A stretch of DNA of 54,567 bases from Opitutia bacterium (GTDB lineage: Bacteria; Verrucomicrobiota; Verrucomicrobiia; Opitutales; Opitutaceae): contig CANJCM010000023.1 in NCBI GenBank assembly GCA_947472765.1, positions 1-54,567 on the forward strand, read 5' to 3'. Both the position numbers and the translations under genes were made by a program. Below are positions 34,037 to 54,567 of the stretch, one piece after another. Positions within the stretch are counted from its first letter, which is position 1. Every line of letters starts with the position of its first letter. The notes below the pieces were generated by a model, which was not told where the DNA came from, did no database searches, and saw only the letters and a program-made list of their open reading frames with translations.

Positions 34037-34089
34037 TCTCCCTCTCTCAGAGGAGAGCTCCGTTTGAGGAGTGGCTTAAAAAGGCTGAT

Positions 34090-37554: not shown

Positions 37555-37801
37555 AGCCCGGTCTCGCCTGGCCGGGACCGCGCCGCCCGACCTCGGATCA
37601 GGAGGGAAACTCATACCATTTTTGAGGTATTTCGTCACATACGGCTTGGACGGGTCGCCAGCCCTGTTTGAACCCCCTGATTCAAGCGAAACGAACAAGT
37701 CGTGGCATCTTCCAAGGGTGCTCGGGGGGATCTTTCCCATCCAGGGCTGGGATTGTATACCGGCGCGGCCCGTCTGCAGGCGTAACCCAAAAGACCGCCC
37801 C

Positions 37802-38482
37802 ATGAATCCCCTCGCGAGCCGCATCGGCATCATCACTGTGACGGTGGTCGACCGGAGCGAGGCCTTCCGTCACCAGCTCTGCCAGGTACTGACGCGCTGC
37901 CCCGGCATTGTCGTCTTCGACCAATGTGCAACTCTGCAGGAAGCCCGGACCTGCCTGGAACTGCGGGCACCCAGGGTACTGCTGCTGGGCGACGACCTGA
38001 CCGGCTCCCCCGGTTGGGAGGCCATGGAGGCCATGCGCGACCTGACCGGGAAGGTGCTGACGATGGCCATGTCCGACCAGCGGGCCGCAGGGCACATCCG
38101 CGCGGCGTTCGTGCAGGGGGCCGTAGGCTATCTTCTGCGGCAGACGGCGGCGACGCTGGTGCAGCGTTCGCTCCATGAGGTCACCGCCGGGGCGTCCCCG
38201 ATGTCTCCCGAGGTTTCACGCGCGCTGATCCAGTCCCTCGCCGAGCCGGAGCCGGTTTCCGGTCCGCTGGCCAGCCTTTCCCGCCGCGAACGCGAGGTGC
38301 TCGAACTGCTGAGCATCGGAGCCCGCTACCACGAGATCGCCAACCGTCTGAAACTCAGCCGGGACACCGTGCACTCGCACGCGAAGAATATCTACCGAAA
38401 GCTGATGGTTCGGTCGAAGACCGAGGCGGCGCTGCTGTTCAAGAGCGGCGGAGTCGAGACGCCCGTGCTGGCCGTGGCTTGA
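37802..38482 (+). CDS. NarL/LuxR-type regulator with degenerate receiver
   Basis: From MNPLASRIGI the protein has 226 residues: a receiver-like domain (1-125) and a LuxR helix-turn-helix (residues about 159-209, LSRREREVLELLS through HSHAKNIYRKL). The HTH is intact. The receiver is not: the site aligned with the phosphoacceptor Asp reads Gly63 (VLLLGDDLTGSP), the acidic pair is reduced to one Asp (VVDRSE), and the conserved Lys is Arg (GYLLRQT). It may therefore work without phosphorylation. The frame is open 60 codons upstream to 37622, but the family N-terminus fits the 37802 ATG. It is the last gene before the T3SS cluster and in the same direction. Confidence 0.87.
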   Translation: MNPLASRIGIITVTVVDRSEAFRHQLCQVLTRCPGIVVFDQCATLQEARTCLELRAPRVLLLGDDLTGSPGWEAMEAMRDLTGKVLTMAMSDQRAAGHIRAAFVQGAVGYLLRQTAATLVQRSLHEVTAGASPMSPEVSRALIQSLAEPEPVSGPLASLSRREREVLELLSIGARYHEIANRLKLSRDTVHSHAKNIYRKLMVRSKTEAALLFKSGGVETPVLAVA

Positions 38483-38860
38483 GCAGGGGCTTGGCCAGAA
38501 GCCGGGGCCTCGGGGCATCGCCCTGACGCGGCGGAACGGGATCAGGCCCACCGCAGTTCATCGGGAGTCCTCGCGATGAGGTAATTGCTTCTGCCTGAAC
38601 CAGCGGCGGACCAGTAGGTCAGTCCTCCACCGCAGCCGACCGCGAATTTAGCCTCCCACGTGTCTTCTCCGTGTATAGGTTCTTGGGAGGCGGACATCCC
38701 CATCCGCCGCAAAAAAGCGTCGTGGCCAGCGCCCATTCCGCCCGAAAACCACCAAGTTGGACAAAAGGCATCACCGCATCACCCGAATAGGTGAGATTTG
38801 GGTGATCGCGTTTGCGGCACGAAGGCCGGGGCAGCACTAGCCTTAGCCTCTTCACCTCCC
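38483..38860. promoter_or_regulatory. Gap upstream of the T3SS cluster, with an inverted repeat
   Basis: This 378-base gap should hold the promoter of the sctW operon. Near its end, ATCACCC (38778-38784) and GGGTGAT (38800-38806) form a perfect inverted repeat around a 15-base spacer that itself contains GGTGA. It is a candidate operator for one of the two upstream regulators, centred about 69 bases before sctW. On the minus strand there is a 64-residue open frame (38542-38736, ending SGRSNYLIARTPDELRWA) with no recognisable homology; I do not call it a gene. Confidence 0.5.
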
Positions 38861-39733
38861 ATGGCCATCGACGGCACCATTCGCGCAGAAGTCCAAGCCT
38901 ACACCGCCAAGCAGTCGGTGGATGAGCCCTTCGTGGAAGTGCAGCGCCAGGAAGGGCTATTTCAGGGACAGAAGGTACAGGTGACGGATGCCAACTCCGC
39001 CGTGGCCAACGCGGCGGAGGAAGTCGGCTCCGTCGTGGCCGAGAAGGTCGAGAAGACCCTTTCCGAGCGGAAGGCCGGCTCCAAGGAGGCGCTCAAGAGC
39101 TCCGCCACCGAGCTGGCGGAATACTACGTCAACCAGATGGCCGAGCCGCAGGCCGGCCAAAAGCTGCATGCCTTCCTTGACCAGCTGAAGAAGATGGGTA
39201 ACGAGGCCTCGGAGGCCGAGATCCGCCAGGCGCTGGGCGAACACTTCGGGGATTCCTCAGACCAGTTCGCCGCGCTCTCCTTCGCGGAGGAGTCGCTGGG
39301 CAAGGAGGGAGCCTTGGCGGGGTTGCAGGCCAGGCTCGGCGCGGTCAAGGCGCAGCTGTTGAAGGAGGCGGGGCCGGCCATCCGCTCCGGCCTCAACATC
39401 GCCGCCGAGGCGCTGCGCTACGCGGACAAGGGCCTCGAGGGAGCCGCCGCGCTGCGCGACATGTACCGGTTTTCCATCCTGGGCGGCCAGAGCGTGTCCT
39501 CCATCTACCTCGCGGTGATGAACCGTTACGGGGCCGAGAAGTTCTCCGACTCGCTGGAGTTCCTGCTCCGCGCCGCCAGCAGCGACCTCGACGGCCGGGT
39601 GATGGCCTCCTCGATGGAGCGTCCCCAGCTGAAGAACGCCGTCGACGACATCTACCACGTGCAGGCGCTCGGCAACACCTATCGCACCCTGGACGACCTG
39701 CTCGCGACGACGCGACGCCTGTTCGCCGCCTGA
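38861..39733 (+). CDS. sctW: T3SS gatekeeper SctW (YopN/HrpJ/InvE family)
   Basis: The 290-residue protein matches YopN in length and place. A polar N-terminus (export signal and chaperone-binding part, about residues 1-75) precedes the helical YopN/HrpJ domain (FLDQLKKMGNEASEAEIRQA, then EHFGDSSDQFAALSFAEESL). The gatekeeper plugs the export channel until host contact and orders translocators before effectors. The SycN/YscB chaperone pair and TyeA are encoded close by, as needed for a YopN-type plug. The start is the ATG at 38861, 21 codons inside the longest frame. Confidence 0.87.
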   Translation: MAIDGTIRAEVQAYTAKQSVDEPFVEVQRQEGLFQGQKVQVTDANSAVANAAEEVGSVVAEKVEKTLSERKAGSKEALKSSATELAEYYVNQMAEPQAGQKLHAFLDQLKKMGNEASEAEIRQALGEHFGDSSDQFAALSFAEESLGKEGALAGLQARLGAVKAQLLKEAGPAIRSGLNIAAEALRYADKGLEGAAALRDMYRFSILGGQSVSSIYLAVMNRYGAEKFSDSLEFLLRAASSDLDGRVMASSMERPQLKNAVDDIYHVQALGNTYRTLDDLLATTRRLFAA

Positions 39734-39736
39734 GCC

Positions 39737-40042
39737 ATGCCGGATGCGCCCTCCGTCCCGTTTCCACCCGCCGGTGCCGCCGCATTCACCGCCCACGACC
39801 TGATGAAGGAGGTACTGCAGATGACAGCCCAGCGCTGGACCGACCCGGACGGCCTGGCGAAGCTGGCGACGGCCGCGGGCTTCTCCGCGCCTCCCGCCCG
39901 CATCTACTTCCTGACCCAGCTGCGCGAGAAGGTCCGGACGCTGCCGCTCAAGCTCTTCGCCTCCCCCGAGACGCGCGAGAAGCTCCTGGAATCCATGCAG
40001 ACCGCCCTCGACCGCGAGATCGCCCGGGAGGAAGTCGCATGA
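39737..40042 (+). CDS. tyeA: TyeA-like T3SS gatekeeper partner
   Basis: The 101-residue helical protein (LMKEVLQMTAQRWTDPDGLA, then LTQLREKVRTLPLKLFASPE) resembles Yersinia TyeA in pattern and length after a 20-residue N-terminal extension. TyeA binds the C-terminal part of YopN to hold the plug at the inner side of the export gate. Here it is a separate gene, as in Yersinia, not fused to SctW. It follows SctW by 3 bases, and its stop overlaps the sycN start (ATGA). Confidence 0.85.
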   Translation: MPDAPSVPFPPAGAAAFTAHDLMKEVLQMTAQRWTDPDGLAKLATAAGFSAPPARIYFLTQLREKVRTLPLKLFASPETREKLLESMQTALDREIAREEVA

Positions 40043-40419
40043 ACCTCGTCGACGAAATGATCGCGGAGTTCGGCACCACCCTGGGCATCGAGCAGCTCCG
40101 GCTCAACGACCAGGGCACGCTCGTGCTCTCGATCCAGTCGCTCGGGCTGCTGGGATTCGACCGGGCCGGCCCGCACGGCGAGTCCGTCCTCGTCAGCCTC
40201 ACGCGCCCGCTGCCCCCGGCCTGGGACCAAGACTGGGCCAACCTCCTCGGCGCCACGCACCACCAGTCCCGGCCGCCCGCCGGCCTGCAGGTGGGCGTGA
40301 TTCGCGACCAACTGGTGCTGACCTTCCTGATCGAGCCGGGCGATTTCACGCTACCGCGGATCACCGAGGCCATCACGGCCCTGGACCGCCAGCATTCCTC
40401 CCTGAAGGCCAGAGGATGA
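40039..40419 (+). CDS. sycN: SycN-like gatekeeper chaperone
   Basis: The 126-residue small acidic alpha/beta protein is of the CesT class. An N-terminal helix (LVDEMIAEFGTTLGIEQL) and central strands lead to the end FTLPRITEAITALDRQ, which resembles the SycN terminus. In Yersinia, SycN and YscB form a heterodimer that carries YopN to the export gate. A YscB-like gene is also present (43261). It is overlapped by tyeA before it and by the yscX-like gene after it (ATGA each). Confidence 0.8.
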   Translation: MNLVDEMIAEFGTTLGIEQLRLNDQGTLVLSIQSLGLLGFDRAGPHGESVLVSLTRPLPPAWDQDWANLLGATHHQSRPPAGLQVGVIRDQLVLTFLIEPGDFTLPRITEAITALDRQHSSLKARG

Positions 40420-40817
40420 AGAAGGAGCCACCCGAGTCCTTCCATCCCCACGTCGGCCTGACGAGGATCGAACTCGTCGACGAGGCCCCGGACCGCGAGG
40501 AACTGCCTGCGGATTCGCGGCTGCACCCGATCAATTCCGCGGTGGAGGCACGCCTGCAGCTGCTGCTCCAGGCCGAGACCTTCGATGCCATGATCTTGGA
40601 CGCTGTCCGGCCGGGGGTCTTCGACCGCGACGTGCTCGCCCCCTCCCGCTTCCACCAGCTCCGGGAAAGGACCACGGAGCGGCTGCTCGAATTGCACGCC
40701 GCCGCCCGCTCCCCGGAGACGGCGGCCGAGCTCGCCGCCGCCGGGGAGGTCCTCCGCCGCCGGGCCGCCGAGCATGAGCTCGGCGAGGCCCTCCGCTACG
40801 CCCTCTTGAAGGGCTGA
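40416..40817 (+). CDS. yscX: YscX-like early T3SS export substrate
   Basis: The 133-residue protein recalls YscX in order of features: an N-terminal FHPHVGLTRIEL segment (compare the PHIGI of YscX), then LPADSRLHPINSAVEARL, a hydrophobic patch and a final helix ending HELGEALRYALLKG. YscX is secreted early and, with YscY, binds SctV to support needle assembly. It occurs only in Ysc-type systems, so its presence strengthens that assignment. The alignment is by eye. Confidence 0.8.
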   Translation: MKKEPPESFHPHVGLTRIELVDEAPDREELPADSRLHPINSAVEARLQLLLQAETFDAMILDAVRPGVFDRDVLAPSRFHQLRERTTERLLELHAAARSPETAAELAAAGEVLRRRAAEHELGEALRYALLKG

Positions 40818-40821
40818 ACCG

Positions 40822-41181
40822 ATGGCCGCCTCCAGCCCCCTCTTCACACGTTCCGAGCGCGACGCCCTCGTGGTGCTGGGCTACCTGCACCTCGAGCAGT
40901 CTCGCCCCGGGGAGGCCGCCGCCCTGCTCCGGCCCCTCCACCGCTCCAACCCCGAGGACGCCGAGGTCGAGCGCTGCCTCGCGGTGGCCGAACTGCAGTC
41001 CGGCCAGGCAGCCAGCGCGGCCCGCCTCGCGGCCCACGCCTACACCCTCGCCGACGAGACCATGCGCCACGTACTGGGGCTCGTCTACGCCAAGGCCCTT
41101 TGGATGGGGGGCGACGACACGGGCGCCCGGCAAGCTCTCGCCAAGATCATCGAACGCCGGAGCACCCTTCATGAAGGCTAA
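40822..41181 (+). CDS. yscY: YscY-like TPR chaperone of YscX
   Basis: The 119-residue protein has three TPR-type helical pairs: ERDALVVLGYLHLEQSRPGE, NPEDAEVERCLAVAELQSGQ and HVLGLVYAKALWMGGDD. This matches YscY in length, place and motif pattern. YscY is the cytosolic chaperone of YscX, and the pair contacts the SctV export gate. The gene starts 4 bases after yscX and overlaps sctV by 11 bases, so the three are translationally linked. Confidence 0.82.
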   Translation: MAASSPLFTRSERDALVVLGYLHLEQSRPGEAAALLRPLHRSNPEDAEVERCLAVAELQSGQAASAARLAAHAYTLADETMRHVLGLVYAKALWMGGDDTGARQALAKIIERRSTLHEG

Positions 41182-43264
41182 CATCATCAACCTCCAGAAC
41201 CGCCTCCTCGGGATGGCGCGCTATGCGGACGTCCTGCTGGCAGTCGGCGTGGTGCTCATCCTCTCGATGATGATCCTGCCGATTCCGCCGTTCGTGCTGG
41301 ATATCCTGCTGGCGACGAACCTCTCCCTCTCGATCCTACTGCTGGTAATCGCGATGTATGTGCCGAACATCCTCGCCTTCTCCACCTTCCCGTCGCTGCT
41401 GCTTGTCACCACGCTCTTCCGGCTCGGCCTGAATATCACCACGACCCGCCTCATCCTGCTCGAGGCGCATGCGGGCGACATCATCTTCACCTTCGGCAAC
41501 TTCGTCGTCGGCGGCAACTTCGCGGTCGGCGTGGTGATCTTCCTGATCATCACGATCGTGCAGTTCATCGTGATCACAAAGGGCGCCGAGCGCGTGGCCG
41601 AAGTCTCGGCCCGCTTTACGCTGGACGCCATGCCGGGCAAGCAGATGAGCGTCGATGCCGACCTCCGGTCCGGCACCATCGACCAGGCCGAGGCCAAGCG
41701 CCGCCGGTCCGACCTCGAGAAGGAAAGCCAGCTCCACGGTGCCATGGACGGCGCGATGAAGTTCGTGAAGGGCGACGCGATCGCGGGCATCATCATCACC
41801 GGCATCAACGTCCTCGCAGGCGTCACCATCGGCGTGATGCAGAAAGGCATGGATGTGGCCAAGGCCCTCTCCACCTACTCGATCCTGACGATCGGTGACG
41901 GCCTGATCTCGCAGATCCCCTCGCTGTTAATCTCGATCACGGCGGGCATGATCGTGACGCGCGGCGGCGGCGAGGCGGGATCGACGCTGGGCGGCGACGT
42001 GGTCAAGCAGCTCATCTCCGAGCCAAAGGGCCTGTTCATCGCGGGCGGCTTCATGGTCGCGTTCGGCATGATCCCGGGCTTCCCGCCGATGCCCTTCCTG
42101 CTCCTGGGCGGCGTGGCCGTAGCCGTCGGCTTCGCGGTCCAGCGCAAGGACCAGGCCGAGGCGCCCAAGGACTCACGCAACCTCCCTGCCATGGCGCCGG
42201 CGGTGCAGAAGGTCTCCGTGAAGCGGAAGGAGTCCGGCGACGAGTTTTCAATCACCGTTCCTCTGCTGATGGACGTCGCGGCCGCCAGCCAGGCCCAGAT
42301 CGACGCGGAGGCGATGAACGACGAGCTCATCCAGGTGCGCCAAGCGCTGTACCACGACCTTGGCGTGCCGTTCCCGGGCATCCACCTGCGCTTCAACGAG
42401 GGGCTGACCGGCAACCAGTACCGAATCCTGCTCCACGAGGTACCGATCGCCGAGGGCGCCTTCCGCGCGGGACACGTGATTGCCCGCGAGAAGACCGAGA
42501 CCCTGAAGATGCTCCGGATCCCCTTCGTCGAGGACAAGAGCTTCCTTGCGGGGCTGAAGCCGCTCTGGGTGCCCGAGGCGCACCTGGCGGAACTGGCCAA
42601 GGCCCGCATCCAAGTGCTGCAGCCGACGCAGGTGCTGACGTACCACCTGAGCGTGATCTTGAAGCGGTACGCCGGCGACTTCATCGGCCTGCAGGAGACA
42701 AAGTACCTGCTGGAAAAGATGGAGGCCGAGTTCCCCGAGGTGGTGCGCGAGGTCCAGCGCGTGCTCCCGGTCCAGAAGATCGCCGAGGTGCTGCAGCGGC
42801 TGGTGCAGGAGGATGTCTCGATCCGCAACCTGCGGACGATCTTCCAGGCGCTCATCGACTGGGGCCAGAAAGAGAAGGAGGCGGTGCTGCTCACGGAGTA
42901 CGTCCGCTCCAACCTGCGCCGCTACATCAGCTACAAGTTCAGCCGCGGTCAGAACATGATCGCCGCGTACCTCCTCGAGCCCGACGTCGAGGAGAAGATC
43001 CGCAAGGCCATCCGCCAGACCTCCTCCGGCGCCTACCTCGCCCTCGACCCGGTCAGCGTGAAGAAGCTCCTGCAATCGGTGCGCAAGGAAGTCGGCAACC
43101 TCTGGGAGAGCAACCAGCGCCCGGTCCTCCTGACCTCGATGGACGTCCGCCGCTACACGCGGAAACTCGTCGAGCAGGAGTTCTACGACCTGCCGGTGCT
43201 CTCGCATCAGGAGCTCACGGAAGAGATCACCATCCAGCCGCTCGGACGCATTTCCATGTCATGA
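41171..43264 (+). CDS. sctV: T3SS export gate SctV (LcrD/YscV, FlhA family)
   Basis: The 697-residue protein is full length. Eight TM segments lie in the first 330 residues (for example ADVLLAVGVVLILSMMILPI), with the FHIPEP signature region (FSTFPSLLLVTTLFRLGLNI and GDGLISQIPSLLISITAGM). The cytoplasmic C-terminal domain (residues about 350-697, with VPFPGIHLRFNEGLTGNQY and LSHQELTEEITIQPLGRI) forms the nonameric ring that receives chaperone-substrate complexes. The YXV gene order matches the Ysc virA-type operon. Confidence 0.97.
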   Translation: MKANIINLQNRLLGMARYADVLLAVGVVLILSMMILPIPPFVLDILLATNLSLSILLLVIAMYVPNILAFSTFPSLLLVTTLFRLGLNITTTRLILLEAHAGDIIFTFGNFVVGGNFAVGVVIFLIITIVQFIVITKGAERVAEVSARFTLDAMPGKQMSVDADLRSGTIDQAEAKRRRSDLEKESQLHGAMDGAMKFVKGDAIAGIIITGINVLAGVTIGVMQKGMDVAKALSTYSILTIGDGLISQIPSLLISITAGMIVTRGGGEAGSTLGGDVVKQLISEPKGLFIAGGFMVAFGMIPGFPPMPFLLLGGVAVAVGFAVQRKDQAEAPKDSRNLPAMAPAVQKVSVKRKESGDEFSITVPLLMDVAAASQAQIDAEAMNDELIQVRQALYHDLGVPFPGIHLRFNEGLTGNQYRILLHEVPIAEGAFRAGHVIAREKTETLKMLRIPFVEDKSFLAGLKPLWVPEAHLAELAKARIQVLQPTQVLTYHLSVILKRYAGDFIGLQETKYLLEKMEAEFPEVVREVQRVLPVQKIAEVLQRLVQEDVSIRNLRTIFQALIDWGQKEKEAVLLTEYVRSNLRRYISYKFSRGQNMIAAYLLEPDVEEKIRKAIRQTSSGAYLALDPVSVKKLLQSVRKEVGNLWESNQRPVLLTSMDVRRYTRKLVEQEFYDLPVLSHQELTEEITIQPLGRISMS

Positions 43265-43704
43265 CAGCCATGAACCCACTCGAATCTGCGGTCACCGCCC
43301 TCTGCCGGGAACTGGATATCCCTGCTCCCGCCCCCAATGCCCGCTCGCGCTACGAGCTGCGCGTGGGTGACTCGATCCTGCGCCTGGGCCCCTGGGGCGA
43401 GCGCGAGGTGGTCCTGGAAGGACCGGTGCTGAACCTGGGCAACAACGCCTCCGCGAACTGGCAGGTGCAGCAGGACATTCTTCGCCAGGCCCTGACGTGG
43501 AACCTGGCCCGGCTGAAGGGCCAGGCCCGGCCAGAGGTGCTGAGCTTCGACGAGCACGAGAACATCATCGTGCTCTGGCGCACCTGGCCGAGCGACGAGC
43601 GGCTCACGGCCGCCATCCTCCGCGGAGCCGAGGAGATGCTCAATGAGGTCGAGTTCTGGCGCAACAAGATCAAGGCGTTCGCGCCGCAACTCCTCCCCTC
43701 TTGA
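43261..43704 (+). CDS. yscB: YscB-like gatekeeper chaperone
   Basis: The 147-residue CesT-class protein has a core (YELRVGDSILRLGPWGEREV, then GNNASANWQVQQDILRQALT) that resembles YscB (compare its GNN and QQALAW segments). It sits directly before the secretin gene, as yscB does in Yersinia. YscB partners with SycN to chaperone YopN. Here the two chaperone genes flank yscX-yscY-sctV. It could instead be a generic effector chaperone. It overlaps sctV (ATGA) and the sctC start. Confidence 0.75.
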   Translation: MTAMNPLESAVTALCRELDIPAPAPNARSRYELRVGDSILRLGPWGEREVVLEGPVLNLGNNASANWQVQQDILRQALTWNLARLKGQARPEVLSFDEHENIIVLWRTWPSDERLTAAILRGAEEMLNEVEFWRNKIKAFAPQLLPS

Positions 43705-45599
43705 AACGCCTCCTGCTCGCCCTCCTGGGGCTCACCGCCGGCACCACCCTGTTCCGGGCCGCCCCCGGCATTCCTTGGCGCGCCGCCACCTACTCGACCC
43801 AGGCGGACCGTGTCCCCGCGTCGGCGCTGCTCCAGGCCTTCGCGACCCAGCAGGGCCTGCCGCTGCAGCTGAACGCGCCGGCCGAGGCGCCGGTCTCCGG
43901 CCGGTTTCAGGACGTGCCGGCCCGCCAGTTCCTCGACGCGGTTTGCGAGGCCACGGGGCTGCTCTGGTTCTGGGACGGCAGCCGCCTGCATATCGACGCC
44001 GCGGCCGCGAGCGAGACCCGCGTGGTCAACCTCGAGGCCGTCACCCCGGAACGCGCCACGGCGGCGCTGCGGGGCCTGGGCTTCGACGGAGGCCCGGCCA
44101 CGCTGGGCCAGGCGGTCCGCGGCGGCGAAGGCATCCTGACCTTGGCCGGTAGCCGGAAGTTCATCGAGGTGGCCGAGCCGGTCCTGAGGACTCTGAACTC
44201 CATGGAGGCCGAGCGCGAGAGCCAGGCGCGCCTGCAGACGGAGCGGGAAGAGGCCGCCGCCGCCGCCGCGGGCTCCCAAGTGCAGATCCGCGTCTTCCGG
44301 CTGACGTATGCCACGGCCGGGGACATCACCGTCCGCGGCGGTTCCAGCCAGTCGGTGATTCCCGGCGTCGCCCGCGCGCTGCAGAACATCATGGGCACGA
44401 GTTCCGGCGAGCTGTCGGTGGGCGTGGAGTCCACGCCCGGCCGCAACCAGCTGACGGGCCTGCGCGGCACGGGCCTCGCGGCCGCGGGCAAGGAAACAGC
44501 GCCCAGGGCCGCCGCCATGTCCCCGGTCCGCCGGGATGAGCTGCCGGCCGATGAGAACCGGGTCCTTATCCAGGCCGATCCCCGGCTCAACGCCGTCATC
44601 ATTCGCGACACCGTCGCCCGCCTGCCGCTCTACGAGGAGCTGATTCGCCAGCTCGACGTAGCCAGCCCGGTGATTGAAATCTCCGCCGCGGTGGTCGACA
44701 TCGACACGGACAACAACCGCAACGCCGGCGTCGAGTTCCTGAGCTTCGGCCGCGTCGGCACCGGCATCACCCCCCGGGCGGGATTCGACGGTGACTTCGG
44801 CGCCAGCCGGGAACCGGGCGGAACCAGTACCAGCGGCACGATCACCGACAGTCAGGCCCTGGTCCGGACCTCCGGCTTCGCCTCCTCCGTGCTGGTGCCG
44901 GTGAGCGGCTTCGAGCTGCTCGCCCGCGTCCGCGCCCTGGAGGAGAAGGGCGAGGCCCAGCTCGTCACGAGTCCAACCGTCATCACCCTCGACAACGTCG
45001 AGGCCAACCTGCGGCAGGACGACACGGTCTACGTGCGCGTGTCGGGCAACGGCACCGGGGCCTCCTCGGACCTGTTCAACGTGCGGACCGGCGTAACCCT
45101 CCGGGTCACGCCGACCGTGGTGCGCGAAGGCGACGAGATTTCGTTCCGGATGGTGGTGGAGGTGCAGGACGGGAACTTCAGCGACCTGACTGTCGACGGC
45201 GTGCCCGCAACCCGCGAGAGCACGATCAACACGCAGGCGGTGGTCCCGGCCAACCGGACACTCCTGATCGGCGGGTATTTCGTCGAGCGGCGCAGCGATA
45301 AGACGCACCAGATCCCAGGCCTCGGCGACCTGCCATACGTCGGCGGGCTGTTCAAGCGCACCGACCGCACGCAGGCGCGGGCCCAGCGTTTCTTCTTCAT
45401 CACGCCACGGCTGGTCGACGTGAAGCGCGAAGCCCGCACCAACCTCCCCGCCGCCCCGGCGGAAAAGAACCGCCTGCCGGCGGCGTCCATTGATCCGGTG
45501 AAGGTCCGTGACCGCGCCGATGTCGCCGTCGGGCGCTCGCGGGGTGCCTTCGAGCCGGTCCCGACCACCGTTCCGGAAACGGCTCCGGCCAAACCCTGA
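43701..45599 (+). CDS. sctC: T3SS outer membrane secretin SctC
   Basis: The 632-residue protein begins with a signal peptide (KRLLLALLGLTAGTTLFRAA) read from a TTG start that overlaps the yscB stop. N-terminal N0/N1-type ring domains follow (about 40-290). The secretin core (about 330-600) contains the conserved FERRSDKTHQIPGLGDLPYV-type segment (VERRSDKTHQIPGLGDLPYV, about residue 532) and VGGLFKRTD. The C-terminal 50 residues carry the region where a pilotin would bind, but no pilotin gene is next to it. It forms the outer membrane ring of the needle complex. Confidence 0.96.
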   Translation: MKRLLLALLGLTAGTTLFRAAPGIPWRAATYSTQADRVPASALLQAFATQQGLPLQLNAPAEAPVSGRFQDVPARQFLDAVCEATGLLWFWDGSRLHIDAAAASETRVVNLEAVTPERATAALRGLGFDGGPATLGQAVRGGEGILTLAGSRKFIEVAEPVLRTLNSMEAERESQARLQTEREEAAAAAAGSQVQIRVFRLTYATAGDITVRGGSSQSVIPGVARALQNIMGTSSGELSVGVESTPGRNQLTGLRGTGLAAAGKETAPRAAAMSPVRRDELPADENRVLIQADPRLNAVIIRDTVARLPLYEELIRQLDVASPVIEISAAVVDIDTDNNRNAGVEFLSFGRVGTGITPRAGFDGDFGASREPGGTSTSGTITDSQALVRTSGFASSVLVPVSGFELLARVRALEEKGEAQLVTSPTVITLDNVEANLRQDDTVYVRVSGNGTGASSDLFNVRTGVTLRVTPTVVREGDEISFRMVVEVQDGNFSDLTVDGVPATRESTINTQAVVPANRTLLIGGYFVERRSDKTHQIPGLGDLPYVGGLFKRTDRTQARAQRFFFITPRLVDVKREARTNLPAAPAEKNRLPAASIDPVKVRDRADVAVGRSRGAFEPVPTTVPETAPAKP

Positions 45600-45613
45600 A
45601 CCCCCGATCTATC

Positions 45614-47866: not shown

Positions 47867-47967
47867 CAATCCGACGCCAACCATCCCCCAAATGGGTGAA
47901 AAATTCCGCTTTCGCCCGACGTCCCGTTGACCGTCTCAAGCCCAGCCCTCTTCTCCCTCTTGATCCC

Positions 47968-48198
47968 ATGACAAACATCGATGTGACCGATTTCGACGAA
48001 GCGCTCGCCGCCGATCGGGACGGCTCCTTCCACGCCGCCGTGGAAAGCCACCTGGCCCAAGCCGTCGCCGAGCAGCACGCCCTTATCCAACGGGGCCTCG
48101 CACCCGCGGAGTTTGCCGACGCCGCCAAGGTCGAAGCCGCCCTCGCCAAGGCCATCGATGTGATCCGTTTTTCCCGCAGCCTCCAAGTTTCGAAGTAA
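47968..48198 (+). CDS. yscE: YscE-like needle co-chaperone
   Basis: The 76-residue mostly helical protein (AAVESHLAQAVAEQHALIQR, then AAKVEAALAKAIDVIRFSRS) resembles YscE in pattern and place. In Yersinia, YscE and YscG clamp the needle subunit YscF so that it does not polymerise in the cytosol. The needle genes and a YscG-like gene follow directly, which supports the assignment. The start ATG is at 47968, 24 codons inside the longest frame. The 101-base gap before it is the largest inside the cluster up to this point. Confidence 0.75.
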   Translation: MTNIDVTDFDEALAADRDGSFHAAVESHLAQAVAEQHALIQRGLAPAEFADAAKVEAALAKAIDVIRFSRSLQVSK

Positions 48199-48217
48199 GC
48201 CTTAACTCAACACTCCC

Positions 48218-48490
48218 ATGGCAGTCATCACCACCGGCACCACCACCACGCCCCTCTTCGGGTCCGCCGACTCCGACATCTTCGAGACCATCAAGAGCAT
48301 GGCGACGAAGATCGGGACCGAGACCACTAACGCCATCGGCGCCGCCAACAGCACCGATTTTTCCGATCCGGGCGCCGTCGTCCTCCTGCAAATGCGCATC
48401 AACCAGGTCACCAACGCCGCCACCGCCATCTCGAACCTCAGCAAGGCCATCCAGGAACCCGCCAAGAATGCGGTCAGCAACCTGCGCTGA
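48218..48490 (+). CDS. sctF: T3SS needle subunit SctF, first copy
   Basis: The 90-residue protein has two helices around a central loop (IFETIKSMATKIGTETTNAI and AVVLLQMRINQVTNAATAIS). This is the size and shape of YscF/PrgI needle subunits, though the ends are less usual: a Thr-rich start (TTGTTTTPLFG) and a short tail ending AVSNLR. Function is assigned mainly by the yscE-F-G gene order. It is followed by a near-identical copy 51 bases downstream. Confidence 0.85.
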   Translation: MAVITTGTTTTPLFGSADSDIFETIKSMATKIGTETTNAIGAANSTDFSDPGAVVLLQMRINQVTNAATAISNLSKAIQEPAKNAVSNLR

Positions 48491-48541
48491 GCCCAATCCG
48501 TTTTCGTTCACTAAACTAGAACTAAATAACCCAACCCTCCC

Positions 48542-48814
48542 ATGGCAGTTATCACCTCCGGCACCACCACCACACCCCTCTTCGGCACCGTCGACTCCAA
48601 CATCTTCGAGACCATCAAGAGCATGGCGACGAAGATCGGGACCGAGACCAACAACTCCATCGGCGCCGCCAACAGCACCGATTTTTCCGATCCGGGCGCC
48701 GTCGTCCTCCTGCAGATGCGCATCAATCAGGTCACCAACGCTGCCACCGCCATCTCGAATCTCAGCAAGGCCATCCAGGAACCTGCCAAAAACGCGGTCA
48801 GCAACTTGCGCTGA
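48542..48814 (+). CDS. sctF2: T3SS needle subunit SctF, tandem second copy
   Basis: The 90 residues differ from the first copy at only six sites (T6S, S16T, A17V, D20N, T37N, A39S), all in the first 40 residues; residues 40-90 are identical. Many synonymous third-base differences separate the DNA copies, which points to purifying selection on the protein rather than a very recent copy. The 51-base gap upstream is AT-richer than the rest of the cluster and could hold a separate promoter. The second subunit may tune needle properties or simply raise dose. Confidence 0.85.
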   Translation: MAVITSGTTTTPLFGTVDSNIFETIKSMATKIGTETNNSIGAANSTDFSDPGAVVLLQMRINQVTNAATAISNLSKAIQEPAKNAVSNLR

Positions 48815-48836
48815 CACCCCCAGTCGCCCCCCCACC

Positions 48837-49244
48837 ATGGAAACCTCCGGTCCGATCGTCCGCCTGCTGATGCGCCTCGGCTACTGGTCCGTCTGGCACG
48901 GCCTGCACGCGGAGGCGTCCGTCCTTTTCGCTGGCGCCCAAGCGGCCCGTCCCGCTAGCGAAGTTCCCGTGGTGGGGATGGCTGTCCTCGCGATGGCCAT
49001 GAACCAGCCGGCCTCCGCCGTGACCTTGCTCCGCGGGCAGGCGCCGGCCGGCAACCCGCCGAGCGACCTGGTCCAAGCCCACCTGGGCTGCGCCCTTTGT
49101 CTTGCCGGCGAGGAAGCCGAGGGTCGTGGCATCCTCAGCCGCCTCGCGGCCGGGGCCAAGGACCCGGCCGCCCGCCAGATGGCCGCGACCCTCTCCGCCC
49201 TCCCGACGGCTCAGCTGAGCCCCAGCCTACCCAAAGTCCTATGA
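48837..49244 (+). CDS. yscG: YscG-like TPR needle chaperone
   Basis: The 135-residue TPR-like protein (LGYWSVWHGLHAEASVLFAG, then DLVQAHLGCALCLAGEEAEG and ARQMAATLSALP) matches YscG in size, repeat pattern and place after the needle genes. YscG cradles the hydrophobic helix of the needle subunit together with YscE. The frame runs well upstream through sctF2, but the ATG at 48837 is the family-like start. Its stop overlaps the sctI start (ATGA). Confidence 0.8.
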   Translation: METSGPIVRLLMRLGYWSVWHGLHAEASVLFAGAQAARPASEVPVVGMAVLAMAMNQPASAVTLLRGQAPAGNPPSDLVQAHLGCALCLAGEEAEGRGILSRLAAGAKDPAARQMAATLSALPTAQLSPSLPKVL

Positions 49245-49687
49245 GCGTCGCTCCCACCGCCCTCCCCCTGCCGATCAGCGCGGCGGTCACTCCGGCCGCC
49301 GCCGTCGAGGCCATCCCCTCTCTCCCGTCCACGGACCTGGATCGCCTCCGCTCGCTGCTGCAGCAGACCGCTTCCCAGACCGCCAAACCGGGGGCCAGCC
49401 TTCCCCCGCCCGAGGCCATCACCGGGGTCGCGACGGAGGGCACCCGCTCTTTTGGCGACTCGATCCTCGAAGGCGTCATGCGCTTTCGCACGAGCTACCA
49501 GGACTCGGTCCAGTCGATCAACCACCGCCTGGAGGCCGTTTCCCAGAACGAGATGTCCGGCCTGAACAACTTTTCCGAGATTCTGAGCCTGCAGGTCGAC
49601 GTCTCGAAGTGGTCGATGTCGGTCATGGGCGTGGACAACGCTTCCAAGGCCGGCACCAACACGGTCAAGGAACTCAGCCGCGGCTGA
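49241..49687 (+). CDS. sctI: T3SS inner rod protein SctI (YscI/PrgJ family)
   Basis: The 148-residue protein has a disordered N-terminal half and a helical C-terminal part (FGDSILEGVMRFRTSYQDSV, then MSGLNNFSEILSLQVDVSKW and SMSVMGVDNASKAGTNTVKE), which carries the conserved rod signature (LSLQ...KW, NASKAG). It builds the rod that links the export gate to the needle. No yscH-like gene lies between yscG and it, unlike in Yersinia. Confidence 0.88.
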   Translation: MSVAPTALPLPISAAVTPAAAVEAIPSLPSTDLDRLRSLLQQTASQTAKPGASLPPPEAITGVATEGTRSFGDSILEGVMRFRTSYQDSVQSINHRLEAVSQNEMSGLNNFSEILSLQVDVSKWSMSVMGVDNASKAGTNTVKELSRG

Positions 49688-49755
49688 GGCCGTATCCAAC
49701 CGCCGGTCCGTTCTCCTCCCAGCCGGCTCCCGGCCGTCTGGGCCCGCCTCTTTTC

Positions 49756-50538
49756 ATGCCGCTCTCCCGACTCCTCTACCTCGCCCCGGCCCGCCTGCTC
49801 CGCGCCGCCCCGCTGGCCACCTGCCTGCTGCTCGTGGGCTGCAGCAGCAAGGTGGCCCTCTTTTCCCAGCTCGAGGAAAACGAGGCCAACGAGATGCTCG
49901 CGATCCTGAGGCCGCGGGAGATCGCCGTCACCAAGGAGCCTGGCAAGGAAGAAAGGTGGGTGCTCAAGGTATCGACGGATGATTTCGCCCGCGCCGTCGA
50001 ACTGCTCAAGGCCCAGGGTTACCCGCGCGAGAAGTTCGCCAAGATGGGCGAGGTATTCCAGAAGGCGGGCCTCGTCAGCTCACCCACCGAGGAGCGCATC
50101 CGCTACATGTACGCGCTCTCCCAGGAGATCGCCGACACGCTGACGCACATCGACGGCGTGACCAGCGCCCGCGTGCACATCGTCATCCCGAACAACGACC
50201 CGCTCGCGGAAAAGATCACGCCCTCCTCCTGCGCGGTGTTCATCCGCTACCGGCAGGGGTTCGACCTCGAGAGCCTCGCGCCCCAGATCAAGAACTTGGT
50301 CACGCGGAGCATCGAGGGCCTGAACTACGACAACGTCACCCTGGTGCTCGTGCCCTCGGCCGCCACGGCGGTGACGCCCCCGCCGGCCGCCGACGCCCGT
50401 CCCGCTGACGCCTCGGCGGCGACCTCTCCCCGGAACCTCGGCGTGACCGCCGCCGCCGCGCTCATCGCGGGCGCCCTCGGCTGGTTTTTCCAGCGGACGC
50501 TCTCCCGACGCGCGGCCAAGCAGCCTGCCGCCGCATGA
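49756..50538 (+). CDS. sctJ: T3SS inner ring lipoprotein SctJ (YscJ family)
   Basis: The 260-residue protein has a type II signal with lipobox LLVGC (about residue 27). Ring-building motif 1 (ALFSQLEENEANEMLAILRP), ring-building motif 2 (RYMYALSQEIADTLTHIDGV, then ARVHIVIPNNDP) and a C-terminal TM (AAAALIAGALGWFF) follow. The layout and length are standard. It is anchored by lipid and TM in the inner membrane and forms the periplasmic ring with SctD. Its stop overlaps sctK (ATGA). Confidence 0.95.
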   Translation: MPLSRLLYLAPARLLRAAPLATCLLLVGCSSKVALFSQLEENEANEMLAILRPREIAVTKEPGKEERWVLKVSTDDFARAVELLKAQGYPREKFAKMGEVFQKAGLVSSPTEERIRYMYALSQEIADTLTHIDGVTSARVHIVIPNNDPLAEKITPSSCAVFIRYRQGFDLESLAPQIKNLVTRSIEGLNYDNVTLVLVPSAATAVTPPPAADARPADASAATSPRNLGVTAAAALIAGALGWFFQRTLSRRAAKQPAAA

Positions 50539-51206
50539 GTACATCCGTCTGGTTCGGCAGCCTGCTCAAGGGTAACCCGGAGCTCTACCGCCAGATCTAC
50601 GACTGGAACCTGTATCCGCACCGCTGGGTCCGGCCGGAATGGCTAGCCACCGTGCCAGGCGCGGAACCGGCCCTCGTCCCTGTGCTCGAGCGCACGGAGC
50701 GGGGTCGCGAGCGGCTGGGCCGCCACGTGCGCGCGGCCCTTGGTCTGACGGACACCTTTTGGGACTTCGAACACCGCCCCCGCCGGCTCGCCCTCCTACC
50801 CGCGGCCACGCTCGAGCATCTGGCACGGTTTGCCGGCGCCGCATGGCACTGGAACAGCCTGACCCGGATGGTCTCGCAGCGTGACCACCGCGCCGTCACG
50901 GCCCGGATCGGCGCCGACGCCCGCACCTTCGCCCTGCGCCGCGGCCGGGCCCTGCTGGGGCCGGCCGGCCTCCCCGTCCCAGCCATCCCGGTCATCCCGG
51001 ATTCGGACCAGCTGACCACGGCCGGCTGGACCCTGATCGCTTCCTGCCTCGGCGCCGAGCCGGCGCCGGTCCTGCCCCGCGCCCGCCTGAAGTTCCCCCG
51101 CGGACTCGCCGCGGGCGAAGCCGTGCCGGCCGCCCAGGCTTGGGGCCTCCTGCAGCCCATCCTCCACGAAACGCTCCCCGCTTCCGACCGCCTATGCTTT
51201 GCCTGA
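50535..51206 (+). CDS. sctK: T3SS sorting platform protein SctK (YscK family)
   Basis: The 223-residue protein has the YscK-like N-terminus (LYRQIYDWNLYPHRWVRPEW) and a Trp/Arg-rich middle. It is well conserved in place between sctJ and sctL. SctK links the SctQ pods to the SctD cytoplasmic domain. No enzyme motif is expected. It overlaps sctL by 13 bases. Confidence 0.87.
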   Translation: MSTSVWFGSLLKGNPELYRQIYDWNLYPHRWVRPEWLATVPGAEPALVPVLERTERGRERLGRHVRAALGLTDTFWDFEHRPRRLALLPAATLEHLARFAGAAWHWNSLTRMVSQRDHRAVTARIGADARTFALRRGRALLGPAGLPVPAIPVIPDSDQLTTAGWTLIASCLGAEPAPVLPRARLKFPRGLAAGEAVPAAQAWGLLQPILHETLPASDRLCFA

Positions 51207-51799
51207 ACCGCCAGGGAGCCAATTTCCTCACGCAGGGGCCGGTCCTCAAGGCAGCGGACTACGCCGCGGCCGTGGCCGCCCAAGACCTCATCCGGCAGGC
51301 CGAGGAGGAGGCCGCCCGCATCCGCTCCGAAGCCGAGGAAATCTACCAGCAGCGAAAGGCGCAGGGCCACCGCGAGGGCGTCGAGGAGGGCAAGGCGGAG
51401 ATGGCCCAGCAGGTCGTCGCCACCCTCGGCCAGTCCAACACTTACCTCGCCAAGATCGAGCAGGCGCTGGTCGACGTCGTGATGAAGTCGACCGCCCGCG
51501 TGATCGGCGAGATCAGCGAACGCGAGCGCGTCGAGCACATCGTCCGCCAGGCCCTTGAGTACCTGGGCCAGAGCGGGCAGGTCCAGGTCAAGGTCTCGCC
51601 CGACCAAGGCGAATGGATGAAGGGCCGCGTCGATGCCCTCCTCACCGCCTTCCCCCGCGTGAAATTTCTCGAGGTCAAGGTCGACCCGCGCCTGCCGGCC
51701 GACGGCTGCGTGCTGGAGACGGAGTTCGCCGTCATCGACGCCACCGTCGAGACGCAGCTGCGCGCCATCGAGAAGGCGTTGATCCAGTCGATCCAATGA
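51194..51799 (+). CDS. sctL: T3SS ATPase stator SctL (YscL/FliH family)
   Basis: The 201-residue protein has a charged coiled-coil middle ([20 protein letters not shown], then [20 protein letters not shown]) and a C-terminal domain ([17 protein letters not shown]) that docks on the ATPase, as in FliH. It links the ATPase to SctQ. The frame runs further upstream into sctK, but the ATG at 51194 is used. Its stop overlaps sctN (ATGA). Confidence 0.92.
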
Positions 51800-53127
51800 G
51801 GCCGCCCCTGCTCGACGCCGAGACGCTTTCCGCCCGCCTGCACCGCGGCGTGGACCGCGCGCAGCCCCTGGCCCCGCGCGGGCGGGTGGTGCAAGTCGTC
51901 GGCACGATCGTCAAGGCCCACGCCCCGGGCGCGAAGATCGGCGAGCTCTGCGCGCTCCGGAACCCCTGGGAGGACCACCAAATCCTCGCGGAGGTGGTGG
52001 GCTTCTCGCAGAACCTCGCGCTGCTCACGCCGCTCGGCGAGATCGTCGGCGCCTCCTCCTTCACCCAGGCGATCCCGCTCGGCGAGGTCCACCGCGTGCC
52101 GGTCGGCCCGGGGCTGCTGGGCCGCGTCCTCGACGGCCTGGGCCAGCCGCTCGACGGCAAGGGGCCCCTCGAGATCGCCGACCACTACCCGGTCTACGCG
52201 GACCCGCCGAACGCGATGACGCGCGAGCTGATCACGAAGCCGATCAGCCTGGGGGTGCGCTCCCTCGACGCGCTCCTCACCTGCGGCGAGGGCCAGCGCA
52301 TGGGCATCTTCGCCGCCGCGGGCGGCGGCAAGAGCACGCTACTCAGCCAGATCGTCCGCAACACCACGGCCGACGTGATCATCCTCGCGCTGATCGGCGA
52401 GCGCGGCCGCGAGGTGCGCGAGTTCCTTGAGCGCGACCTGGGCGAGGAGGGCGTGAAGCGCGCGGTCACCGTCATCTCAACCTCCGACCGACCCTCGATG
52501 GAGCGCCTGAAGGCAGCCTACGTCGCGACAGCCGTCGCGGAATACTTCCGGGATCAGGGCAAGAAGGTGCTGCTGCTGATGGACTCGGTGACGCGCTTCG
52601 CCCGCGCGCTGCGCGAGATCGGCCTCGCGGCCGGCGAGCCACCCACCCGCCGCGGCTTCCCGCCGTCGGTGTTCGCCACCCTGCCCCGGCTGATGGAGCG
52701 CGCCGGCTGCTCGGCCAAGGGCTCCATCACCGCCCTGTACACGGTGCTCGTGGAGGGCGACGACATGACCGAACCGATCGCGGACGAGACCCGCTCCATC
52801 CTCGACGGCCACATCGTGCTCTCGCGCAAGCTGGGCGCGGCCAACCATTACCCGGCCATCGACGTGCTGGCCAGCGTGAGCCGCCTGATGACGGCCATCG
52901 CGGGCAAGGACCACCTGCGCAGCGCAGGCCGCGTCCGCCAGCTGATGGCCAAGTACCAGGAGGTCGAACTGCTGGTCCGCATCGGCGAATACAAGTCGGG
53001 CAACGACGCCGTCGCCGACGAGGCGATCAAGAAGCTCGACGCGATCAACAACTTCCTTCGGCAGGGCCTGCGGGAGCAGAGCTCCTTCGAGCAGACCCTC
53101 GAGGCGCTGCACCAGCTCGTGAAATGA
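51796..53127 (+). CDS. sctN: T3SS ATPase SctN (YscN/FliI family)
   Basis: The 443-residue protein is full length. Walker A ([14 protein letters not shown]) is near residue 174, then [13 protein letters not shown], Walker B ([20 protein letters not shown]), and the T3SS signature [20 protein letters not shown]. It releases chaperones and unfolds substrates at the base of the injectisome. The chosen ATG at 51796 overlaps the sctL stop; the frame upstream lies inside sctL. Confidence 0.97.
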
Positions 53128-53636
53128 GCGGCTACCCACTGCAGGACATGGTGCGCGTCCGTGAGCACCGCGAGGACCAGGCCACCCAGGCGGTGACCAA
53201 GGCCCAGCGGCAGCTAAAGGAGGCCCGCGCCGCCCTCGATCGGAAGCAGCAGGAACTGGTGGACTACACCGTCTGGCGGATCGCCGAGGAAAACCGGCTG
53301 CTGGACTCGCTGATGCGCCGGCCGCTCAAGCTCGGCGAGATCTCCGACGTTCGCGCGACGATCGGCACCTTCCGCGACCGCGAGCTCGAGCTCAAGGACG
53401 AGGTCGTGCAGCACGAGAAGACCGTGGCCAGGGCCGAGGCCCACCTTGAGGAATGCCGCCTGCGCCAGGTCAAGGCCGTGCGCGACCTGGAGAAGCTGGT
53501 CGAGCACCGCACGATCTGGCAGCGCGCCCGCGCCCTCGAGCAGGAGGTCGCCGAGGACCTCGAACTGGAGGATTTCTCCGGACCCCGCGGCGACCGTTTC
53601 AACGTTGAACCCTCTTCGACCCATGGACGCAACTAA
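53124..53636 (+). CDS. sctO: T3SS ATPase stalk SctO (YscO family)
   Basis: The 170-residue protein is a long coiled coil with heavy Arg/Glu/Lys content ([20 protein letters not shown], then [20 protein letters not shown]), the pattern of YscO/FliJ, the rod that sits in the ATPase hexamer and touches SctV. It lies between sctN and sctP as in the Ysc order. It overlaps both neighbours (ATGA with sctN, 14 bases with sctP). Confidence 0.88.
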
Positions 53637-54567
53637 CCCCCTGGCGCGGGGCACCACCCCCCTGGACGAAGAGGCCGCCGCTCTCTCCTCCTCCCTCACA
53701 AGTGGCCCGCTCCCCTGGAACCCCGAGGCGGGCGATCGTCAGGTCAGGCCCGCGGCCGGAAACGGCACCGAGACCGCGGACCCGGCATCCGCCGCGGAGA
53801 CCAACGGGAAAACGGACCCGGCGAGCCTCGTGGCGGCTTTCAAGCAGGCACTGACCGGCCCCACCCCCACGTCGGTCCTGCGTTCCACCTCCGACCCGGC
53901 TCTCGGGGGTGGCATAACCTTGAACGGAGGTCCGGCTTCCCCAGAAATCGGGTCCGGTCCGCTCCCGCGCCCGGAGTCGCTCTATTCCCAAGTGGCCGAG
54001 GCCTTCACGACCCGGGCGGCTGGCGCAGCCATCCCGGTCTCAAGCCACTCCGACCAGGTCGCCGGCACGTCGGCGGGCGGTCGCATGCTTGCAGCGGCTA
54101 CGCCCACCACCGAGACGCCGCCGGCGCGGCAGGCCCCCTTCGTGTCGCCGCGTGCGAACACTGTTGGTACGAGCGTGGATGCCGGCTCCAAAGATGCCAC
54201 AGCGGGCTCCTTCGCCGCCCCGACCGGCACCGAGCAAGGTAACCGGTCCGCCAATCTGGCCCCCACCCCCACGGCCACCCCGACTGCGCTCACCTCCGAC
54301 GCGCCTGCGGCCGTCGCCGCCCTGGCCACCCGCGGCAACGTCCCGCTCGCCGCCTTCCCCACCACGATCGCCTCGCTCCCGGTCACCTCCGCCGTCCCGC
54401 CGCGCACCAGCGGTACCGGGACGACGACCACGCTGACCAGCGACCCGCTGCCCTCCTTCGCCGCCCCGACCGGCACCGACCAAGGTAACCGGTCCGCCAA
54501 CCTGGCCCCCACCCCCACGGCCACCCCGACTGCGCTCACCTCCGACGCGCCTGCGGCCGTCGCCGCC
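53623..54567 (+). CDS. sctP: Needle-length regulator SctP (YscP family), partial
   Basis: This frame stays open from the ATG at 53623 to the end of the window (315 codons, no stop), so the 3' end is missing. The protein is Pro/Ala/Thr/Ser/Gly-rich with almost no aromatic or charged clusters, as expected for the extended ruler region of YscP. From residue about 196 it contains a long internal repeat: 38 residues starting FAAPTGTEQGNRSANLAP recur 82 residues later (54208-54321 and 54454-54567), nearly unchanged, and the second copy ends exactly at the window edge. The T3S4 substrate-switch domain expected at the C-terminus lies outside the window. Identity rests on place after sctO and on composition. 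Confidence 0.78.
   Translation, partial: MDATNPLARGTTPLDEEAAALSSSLTSGPLPWNPEAGDRQVRPAAGNGTETADPASAAETNGKTDPASLVAAFKQALTGPTPTSVLRSTSDPALGGGITLNGGPASPEIGSGPLPRPESLYSQVAEAFTTRAAGAAIPVSSHSDQVAGTSAGGRMLAAATPTTETPPARQAPFVSPRANTVGTSVDAGSKDATAGSFAAPTGTEQGNRSANLAPTPTATPTALTSDAPAAVAALATRGNVPLAAFPTTIASLPVTSAVPPRTSGTGTTTTLTSDPLPSFAAPTGTDQGNRSANLAPTPTATPTALTSDAPAAVAA
54208..54567 (+). repeat. 246-bp period repeat in the SctP ruler
   Basis: Bases 54208-54321 and 54454-54567 are 114-base copies that differ at only two bases seen (GAG/GAC and AAT/AAC codons). They are in frame (82 codons apart), with a diverged spacer between. The array may go on past the window. Confidence 0.85.

Follow-up and report, generated by a model that had tools for sequence, protein, structure and literature searches.

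The question raised by contig CANJCM010000023.1 of the Opitutia bacterium assembly GCA_947472765.1 (Opitutales, Opitutaceae) is how a type III secretion system (T3SS) laid out like that of Yersinia comes to stand in a member of the Verrucomicrobiota, and how it might be switched on there. The assembly comprises 4.97 Mb in 157 contigs and is 95.9% complete; the window, by which we mean the whole stretch of 54,567 nucleotides that was analysed, is its contig C23, and position 54567 is the end of the contig. A preliminary description, made from the letters of the sequence, had read positions 38861 to 54567 as an injectisome cluster of the Ysc type in a likely verrucomicrobial island. We consider it very likely that the window holds the left part of a verrucomicrobial injectisome island beside a tRNA-Val gene, which would work in a Ysc-like manner, probably belongs to a separate lineage, and has as its switch most likely an adjacent NarL-type regulator together with a 16-bp box.

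A Ysc-type gene set and order

Positions 38861 to 54567 hold twenty plus-strand genes, from sctW to an open-ended sctP, and a check of their open reading frames found no in-frame stops. They stand in the following order.

38861..39733, plus strand: sctW (yopN), gatekeeper; TIGR02568 95.8 bits (cut-off 89.5), HrpJ E 4e-21
39737..40042, plus strand: tyeA; PF09059 E 4e-20, TIGR02511 over cut-off
40039..40419, plus strand: sycN-like chaperone; TIGR02503 E 5e-10, under cut-off
40416..40817, plus strand: sctX (yscX); PF09474 E 3.5e-24, TIGR02502 83 bits (cut-off 30)
40822..41181, plus strand: sctY (yscY); NF052415 85 bits (cut-off 70), SctY structure 8arc E 6e-4
41171..43264, plus strand: sctV (yscV/lcrD), export gate; TIGR01399 928 bits (cut-off 692)
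43261..43704, plus strand: chaperone in the yscB position; CesT PF05932 E 2e-7, over cut-off
43701..45599, plus strand: sctC, secretin, TTG start; TIGR02516 320 bits (cut-off 238)
45614..47866, plus strand: sctD, inner-ring protein with a long Pro/Ala-rich region; PF16697, TIGR02500 87.2 (cut-off 86)
47968..48198, plus strand: sctE (yscE), needle co-chaperone; PF08988 matched by all 4 family members scanned (best E 1.9e-6; 0.04 for the window copy by itself)
48218..48490, plus strand: sctF1, needle subunit; PF09392 E 0.002, under cut-off, 6 of 6 family members match, best 1.5e-5
48542..48814, plus strand: sctF2, needle subunit, tandem copy; PF09392 E 0.007, under cut-off; 324-bp tandem duplication
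48837..49244, plus strand: sctG, TPR chaperone in the yscG position; TPR found in all 5 members, a weak match to the YscG model in one of them
49241..49687, plus strand: sctI, inner rod; named by position, C-terminus conserved in all 5 sequences aligned
49756..50538, plus strand: sctJ, inner-ring lipoprotein; TIGR02544 233 bits (cut-off 162)
50535..51206, plus strand: sctK (yscK); PF06578 E 1e-11, over cut-off
51194..51799, plus strand: sctL, stator; NF005392 177 bits (cut-off 159)
51796..53127, plus strand: sctN, ATPase; NF005391 757 bits (cut-off 657)
53124..53636, plus strand: sctO, stalk; PF07321 E 4e-26, over cut-off
53623..54567, plus strand: sctP, ruler, 3' end missing; named by position

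A curated Pfam or NCBIfam cut-off was passed by 13 of the 20 products (SctW, TyeA, SctX, SctY, SctV, YscB, SctC, SctD, SctJ, SctK, SctL, SctN and SctO), in the case of YscB as generic CesT only. SycN, SctE, SctF1, SctF2 and SctG stayed below these cut-offs, and SctI and SctP matched no Pfam or NCBIfam family. SctV, SctN, SctJ and the secretin SctC lie at one locus, which is the combination that marks a non-flagellar T3SS. The best solved relative of SctV is 7alw, a 'Low calcium response protein' (E 4e-251), ahead of SsaV (4e-141) and the best FlhA (4e-120), while searches of solved structures with SctX, SctF, SctI and SctG returned no T3SS relative. The T3SS cluster in Ysc order is confirmed: all twenty genes are present in the order first described, and the matches to hidden Markov models (HMMs) bear out a non-flagellar system with the Ysc-type gene set. 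The accessory parts held to be specific to the Ysc class fared less evenly, since YscX, YscY and TyeA were recovered by their models, YscB came back as CesT, and SycN, YscE and YscG fell below the cut-offs. The count of twenty also stands, with two needle genes among them whose tandem duplication had not been singled out. That most neighbours overlap by ATGA was too strong a statement, because ATGA is found at 7 of the 19 junctions; with one TTGA there are eight four-base overlaps, three further overlaps measure 11-14 bases (11 overlaps in all), and the remaining eight junctions are gaps, the longest of 101 bases between sctD and sctE. Two points weigh on the other side of a working injectisome: the identities of SctG and SctI rest mainly on position, and no effector was recognised in the window, where no search for effectors was made.

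From this gene content we infer the assembly of the machine, delivery by it and the kind of host. The island, inserted next to the tRNA-Val gene, would encode rings of SctC, SctD and SctJ and an SctV gate, fed by SctX:SctY and held by SctW-TyeA, with SctN, SctL, SctO and SctK as the presumed power and sorting parts. By analogy with the known systems, SctY may bring SctX to SctV, SctE and SctG may keep the SctF needle subunits soluble, the SctP ruler would set the length of the needle, and SctW-TyeA would block delivery until contact. Binding of YscX:YscY to the export gate is described in PMC9163089, and control of needle length by SctP in Yersinia in PMC3459982. Proteins would then be delivered into a eukaryotic cell via a translocon encoded beyond the contig end. 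Transcription would be turned on by the adjacent NarL-type regulator, which is predicted to bind the 16-bp box before sctW and sctE, 17 or 27 bases upstream of a -35-like TTG.

The two needle genes are identical at 255 of 273 bases, and their products at 84 of 90 residues. They differ by 6 replacement and 11 silent codon changes (nonsynonymous divergence dN 0.030, synonymous divergence dS 0.209). All six replacements lie within residues 6-39, the half that is variable between species, and among residues 46-90, 40 are invariant across six sequences. In the stretches examined, the same-family relatives G172 and G1008 and the same-class relatives G334 and G362 each have a single needle gene. It is possible that sctF1 and sctF2 give rise to a mixed needle or to a switchable surface.

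A neighbouring regulator and its candidate operator

Upstream of sctW and within the cluster we consider four features.

36688..37554, plus strand: LytTR-type response regulator; only distant counterparts in relatives
37799..38482, plus strand: reg, NarL/LuxR-type response regulator; NarL model E 6e-24, under cut-off
38779..38794, plus strand: box 1, TCACCCGAATAGGTGA; 66 bases before sctW, TTG 17 bases downstream
47884..47899, plus strand: box 2, TCCCCCAAATGGGTGA; 68 bases before sctE, in the sctD-sctE gap, TTGACC 27 bases downstream

The gene reg lies directly upstream of sctW. Its mechanical reading frame opens at 37622, and the start at 37799 was judged from where the homologues begin. G172, G1008 and G993, which are the three family relatives with upstream DNA (a fourth contig, that of G992, starts inside sctW), each have a counterpart of 49-50% identity at this position, and tblastn at E 0.01 gave no match to reg in the stretches of G334, G362 and G129. 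Judged by eye, the receiver domain is without the usual acidic pair and a clear phospho-acceptor context, and therefore the signal of reg may be atypical.

The box is a 16-mer that was first seen by aligning the gaps before sctW, and its pattern is TCMCCCRAAYNGGTGA. In the window this pattern has two exact sites, at 38779 and 47884, and no other at up to one mismatch, against a chance mean of 0.02. G172 has exact sites before sctW and sctE, sites with one mismatch before the translocon operon and the regulator, and one with two mismatches before an LcrR-like gene. The site before sctW is also exact in G1008, which has one mismatch before sctE and two before the regulator, and in G993, whose contig ends before sctE. 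No box at up to one mismatch was found in G334 and G362. Among 258 fetched loci, which do not include the window, the exact box occurs in three, namely those of G172, G1008 and G993, and 692,694 bases of the window's own genome gave none at up to one mismatch and six at two mismatches.

The distance from the box to a TTG is conserved as well. A TTG follows exactly 17 bases after the box at all four sctW sites and exactly 27 bases after it at all five sctE, translocon and lcrR sites, in four of these five as TTGACC, and none of the six background sites has a TTG at 17 or 27. The spacing was noticed before it was tested; in 20,000 shuffles neither set ever shared any offset, a figure that overstates the case among the sctW sites and among the sctE sites because shuffling destroys shared ancestry. 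Downstream of the box, sites agree with one another in 18-59% of the first 17 bases and in 25-50% of 60, and the box promoters of the translocon and lcrR precede genes other than sctE. At the lcrR site the TTG coincides with the start of the mechanical reading frame. The difference of 10 bases is one helical turn, as is expected of an activator that contacts the polymerase from one face of the DNA. No -10 element was recognised by eye.

Several observations count against this picture. G172 has one further one-mismatch box away from the T3SS promoters that is without the 17/27 spacing, and the boxes before the regulator in G172 and G1008 are likewise without it. In the window there is no box before its own reg, and no sigma-70 promoter was found in 38400-38900. 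The conserved box before both sctW and sctE makes doubtful the earlier statement that virA/virC/virB are fused into one unit, and at least two transcription units are therefore likely.

We favour reg as the protein that binds the box. An unlikely but still sizeable alternative is that the box is the site of another factor, for example the LytTR-type or a global regulator, and not the operator of the adjacent gene. It draws on G993, where reg likewise has a distant LytTR-type gene as its neighbour, on the opposite strand and with 27% identity over 228 aa. This is the only near full-length one of the LytTR-type matches, which reach 27-38% in G172, G1008 and G993. In these loci, however, the LytTR genes are found at varying places and with low identity, whereas box and reg occur together in four of four readable family loci (the window, G172, G1008 and G993) and neither is present in G334 and G362.

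The contig end and the genes beyond it

The relatives show what may follow the last gene of the window. The genes sctP-Q-R-S-T-U stand in this order in G172 and G1008 and in G334 and G362. A translocon block lies 3' of sctU in G172 and upstream of sctW in G334 and G362, with SseC matches in all three; in G1008 little sequence is left on the contig beyond sctU. The gene that follows sctU in G172 is LcrR-like (PF09621 E 1.5e-6, over cut-off; TIGR02572 E 2e-6, under cut-off), so that lcrR, which had been described as absent, is indeed absent from the window but has a counterpart in the related locus. Next come a gene for a 936-aa protein and genes for 108-aa and 525-aa proteins in the LcrG and LcrV positions, for which Pfam and NCBIfam gave no family. 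The translocon block comprises a chaperone that matches LcrH_SycD (142 bits against a cut-off of 105), a translocator of the SseC type and, in the YopD position, a protein whose SseD match stays under the cut-off.

In the window, sctP contains a 115-nt repeat (54207-54321 and 54453-54567, 98% identical, spacing 246), and the final base of the contig is the last base of the second copy. The end of such a repeat is a usual point for an assembly to break. It would be rather improbable that the locus is a broken remnant, a strain that has lost sctQRSTU and the translocon and secretes nothing. The absences on which such a loss would rest also speak against our reading: models for sctR, sctU and the SseC-type translocator found no match in the 95.9% complete assembly, and a 7,901-base stretch of G172 with sctQRSTU gave a single 66-base match of 76%. 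Nor did sctQRSTU and the translocon match in 60 stretches of the same genome, and on these searches a location of the missing genes at another place in the assembly was rejected. Against a remnant stand the position of the break at the repeat, genes free of in-frame stops, needle copies that differ mostly silently, and relatives that have the whole set.

Further observations were made in these and other loci. Downstream of the translocon genes in G172, L033:696-2819 (minus strand) encodes a Ser/Thr protein kinase of 707 aa (PF00069 E 7.5e-32). This protein has a long N-terminal extension and is a candidate secreted effector. Second or third genes of the SctU/FlhB family occur in some genomes (G172:C11:1054212-1055234, also G012, G026 and G009) and may belong to flagella or to additional secretion systems. 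In several of the Lentisphaeria-type and other same-phylum loci L046, L048, L049, L056, L057, L061, L069, L071 and L072, a single reading frame matches both sctW and tyeA, and the secretin gene is close to sctW in G376, G342 and G426; this is another arrangement of the same block.

The island boundary

The left flank of the cluster holds three features.

33960..34036, plus strand: tRNA-Val (gac), likely integration site of the island; ARAGORN
34140..35267, plus strand: tyrosine recombinase (integrase); XerD model E 2.3e-10, under cut-off, Pfam integrase domains weak, E 0.013-0.1
35424..36023, plus strand: second tyrosine recombinase, incomplete and probably a remnant; similarity to recombinases weak, E 0.002-0.004

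The same-genus genome G013, which has no YscX, carries the same tRNA gene, and its similarity to the window runs from 33904 to 34037 and ends one base past the tRNA. Besides this copy, which was matched through its longer shared stretch, G013 contains at least two others of tRNA-Val. On the left of the tRNA, the neighbouring gene of the window, RecN-like when judged by eye, is found in G013 in inverted orientation at a distance of 7 kb, and therefore the left flank is not conserved either. The proposed island is borne out by the tRNA-Val gene, the tyrosine recombinase (with its models under the cut-offs) and the end of the G013 similarity at the tRNA. A direct repeat of the tRNA 3' end was rejected for the window, where none of 14 bases or more was found; the right end of the island lies beyond the contig. 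In the examined T3SS-flanking stretches of G172, G1008, G993, G334, G362 and G129 there was no tRNA gene. A foreign, low GC content was also rejected: at 69.2% the T3SS genes are above seven of the eight other window genes compared, and their third-position GC content (GC3, 0.895) is above all eight. Distant relatives of the island recombinase (25% identity) are encoded on two other contigs of the same genome, at L262:5060-5815 and L274:526-948.

The lineage of the export gate and the ATPase

A scan of 112 single or joined loci showed an SctV-like frame, or nearly so, in 108, and 40 of them together with the window were chosen for a first tree. The careful SctV tree has 33 rows and an FlhA root; Massilia, Variovorax, Duganella, Pseudomonas L117, Pantoea, the Syntrophus FlhA, G471 and L100 were dropped from it for reasons of time or long branches. 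In this tree the window pairs with G172 (support 100/99); G334 and G362 join next (100/100) and other Verrucomicrobiota after them (84/79), and the rows of Verrucomicrobiota plus Lentisphaeria form one side of a branch at 77/89. Eight proteobacterial rows were taken as bearing YscX, six by HMM, Aeromonas from PMC5864894 and Photobacterium by assumption. These eight share a group (94/94) with Shewanella, Pseudomonas farris and two rhizobial rows, and two Desulfovibrionaceae rows, of which Mailhella has YscX, stand apart. Two constraints were rejected by approximately unbiased (AU) tests, one that joins the window group to Aeromonas, Photobacterium and SB0670 (p 2.6e-5) and one that joins it to the full set of eight proteobacterial rows (p 0.007); a single clade of Verrucomicrobiota, Lentisphaeria and the eight rows was not rejected (p 0.071). 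In identity, the SctV of the window reaches 52-56% to the Aeromonas and Yersinia plasmid copies and 83-87% to four family relatives.

The separate placement has its weak sides. Support for the verrucomicrobial SctV group is modest, as it is for the group with Lentisphaeria, and the AU p-values are somewhat optimistic because the groups were named after a quick tree had been seen. The deep forks of the SctN tree (25 rows, with no Mailhella, Archangium or Chlamydiae rows, as the stretches examined had no SctN) are open, and it rejected neither grouping (p 0.23 and 0.50), the former being nesting with Aeromonas and Photobacterium. The preliminary description had placed the system in the Ysc clade and had itself named SctV and SctN trees as the check. 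SctV stands instead in a group of Verrucomicrobiota, with modest support and with Aeromonas/Photobacterium nesting rejected, and SctN cannot decide; the assignment of the DNA to the Verrucomicrobiota was supported. A recent transfer of a proteobacterial system of the Yersinia or Aeromonas type into a verrucomicrobium, to which the Yersinia-like gene order and accessory parts, the island context with its recombinase, the sporadic presence in 5 of 200 family genomes and the permissive SctN tree would all be congenial, is very improbable in view of the SctV AU tests, on which alone it was rejected, of the systems of the same order, the same class and Lentisphaeria that group with the window at modest support, and of the higher SctV identity to the family relatives. 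We therefore return to a system that is Ysc-like in its parts and their order and probably forms a separate verrucomicrobial lineage.

One row of the tree deserves separate mention. In L101, a metagenome-assembled genome (MAG) named Verrucomicrobia SZAS AMP-14, SctV groups with a Chlamydiae row (99/96) and there is no YscX match; it is either a chlamydia under a wrong name or a representative of a second type of T3SS within the phylum.

Comparison with known systems

The Ysc family unites the Yersinia Ysc-Yop, Aeromonas Asc, Pseudomonas Psc and Vibrio Vsc systems (PMC5864894). The window shares with it SctX, SctY, TyeA, the SycN/YscB-like chaperones and the YscE-like protein, and the same gene order inside three blocks, and the G172 locus adds the LcrR-like gene and a translocon block in an order like lcrGVH-yopBD. 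It differs in that its SctV apparently forms a separate lineage, its blocks are joined in a run on one strand, its needle genes stand in tandem, and it lies in a tRNA-Val island in the Verrucomicrobiota with a NarL-type regulator and its own box beside sctW. The activator of the Ysc family is of the AraC type (LcrF/ExsA); the conserved neighbour regulator of the window is of the NarL type.

Chlamydiae are relatives within the Planctomycetes-Verrucomicrobia-Chlamydiae group, and theirs is also a non-flagellar T3SS. Unlike the window's, the chlamydial SctV falls outside a 26-row group that holds the window (100/100), and YscX was not found in the two Chlamydiae genomes searched (G529 and G531). 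The chlamydial genes are scattered over several loci (PMC3459982). Within the phylum of the window itself, a T3SS is known from a 2012 survey (PMC3459982) and was reported for Verrucomicrobium spinosum (PMC3681970) and for rice-associated Verrucomicrobia including the Opitutaceae strain EW11 and strain LW23 (PMC7251102). In open PubMed Central we found no paper on Verrucomicrobia with YscX or on Puniceicoccales type III secretion. The island is a real injectisome island, Ysc-like in design, probably of separate lineage and with a candidate switch of its own.

According to PMC5864894, YscX and YscY occur in the gammaproteobacterial Ysc node and nowhere else. By TIGR02502 matches at E up to 0.001, the sampled genomes with YscX number 39 out of 177 in the window's order (every one over the curated cut-off), 24 out of 387 in the Verrucomicrobiota (11 of them over it) and 5 out of 200 in the window's family; among those listed for its genus, one has it and ten do not. 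The class of Pseudomonas farris gave 2 among 369 genomes sampled, and of 14 named genomes chosen from 80 SctV loci 7 were positive, five over the cut-off (Lampropedia, Diaphorobacter, Belnapia, Mailhella and a Gammaproteobacteria MAG). Of the 39 positive genomes of the order, 35 are no larger than 1.3 Mb (rounded sizes); the order includes G153, G012, G026 and G107 as well as L074 and L088. In genomes with sctX and the top SctU-family gene on a single contig, a wide distance separates the two, about 105 kb in G107 and 42 kb in G026. For the protist-nucleus symbiont Ca. Nucleococcus a genome of about 1 Mb is given in PMC8204192.

Tentatively, and with somewhat more doubt than confidence, we suggest that the Ysc design with YscX and YscY may not be a gammaproteobacterial invention but an old layout shared with a verrucomicrobial lineage that spans genomes of free-living size and host-restricted ones of about 1 Mb. 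The family of the window may have placed it under a dedicated NarL-type regulator that acts via a spaced operator at each promoter, and this strain may build a needle of two subunits whose variable N-terminal half differs between the copies. The box with its 17/27 spacing would offer a handle on the conditions that switch the system on, and a search for the box a route to its effectors. The occurrence of YscX in the Verrucomicrobiota makes the age of the Ysc design and the direction of its spread testable, and natural sets of SctX, SctY and SctV far from those of Yersinia are now on offer.

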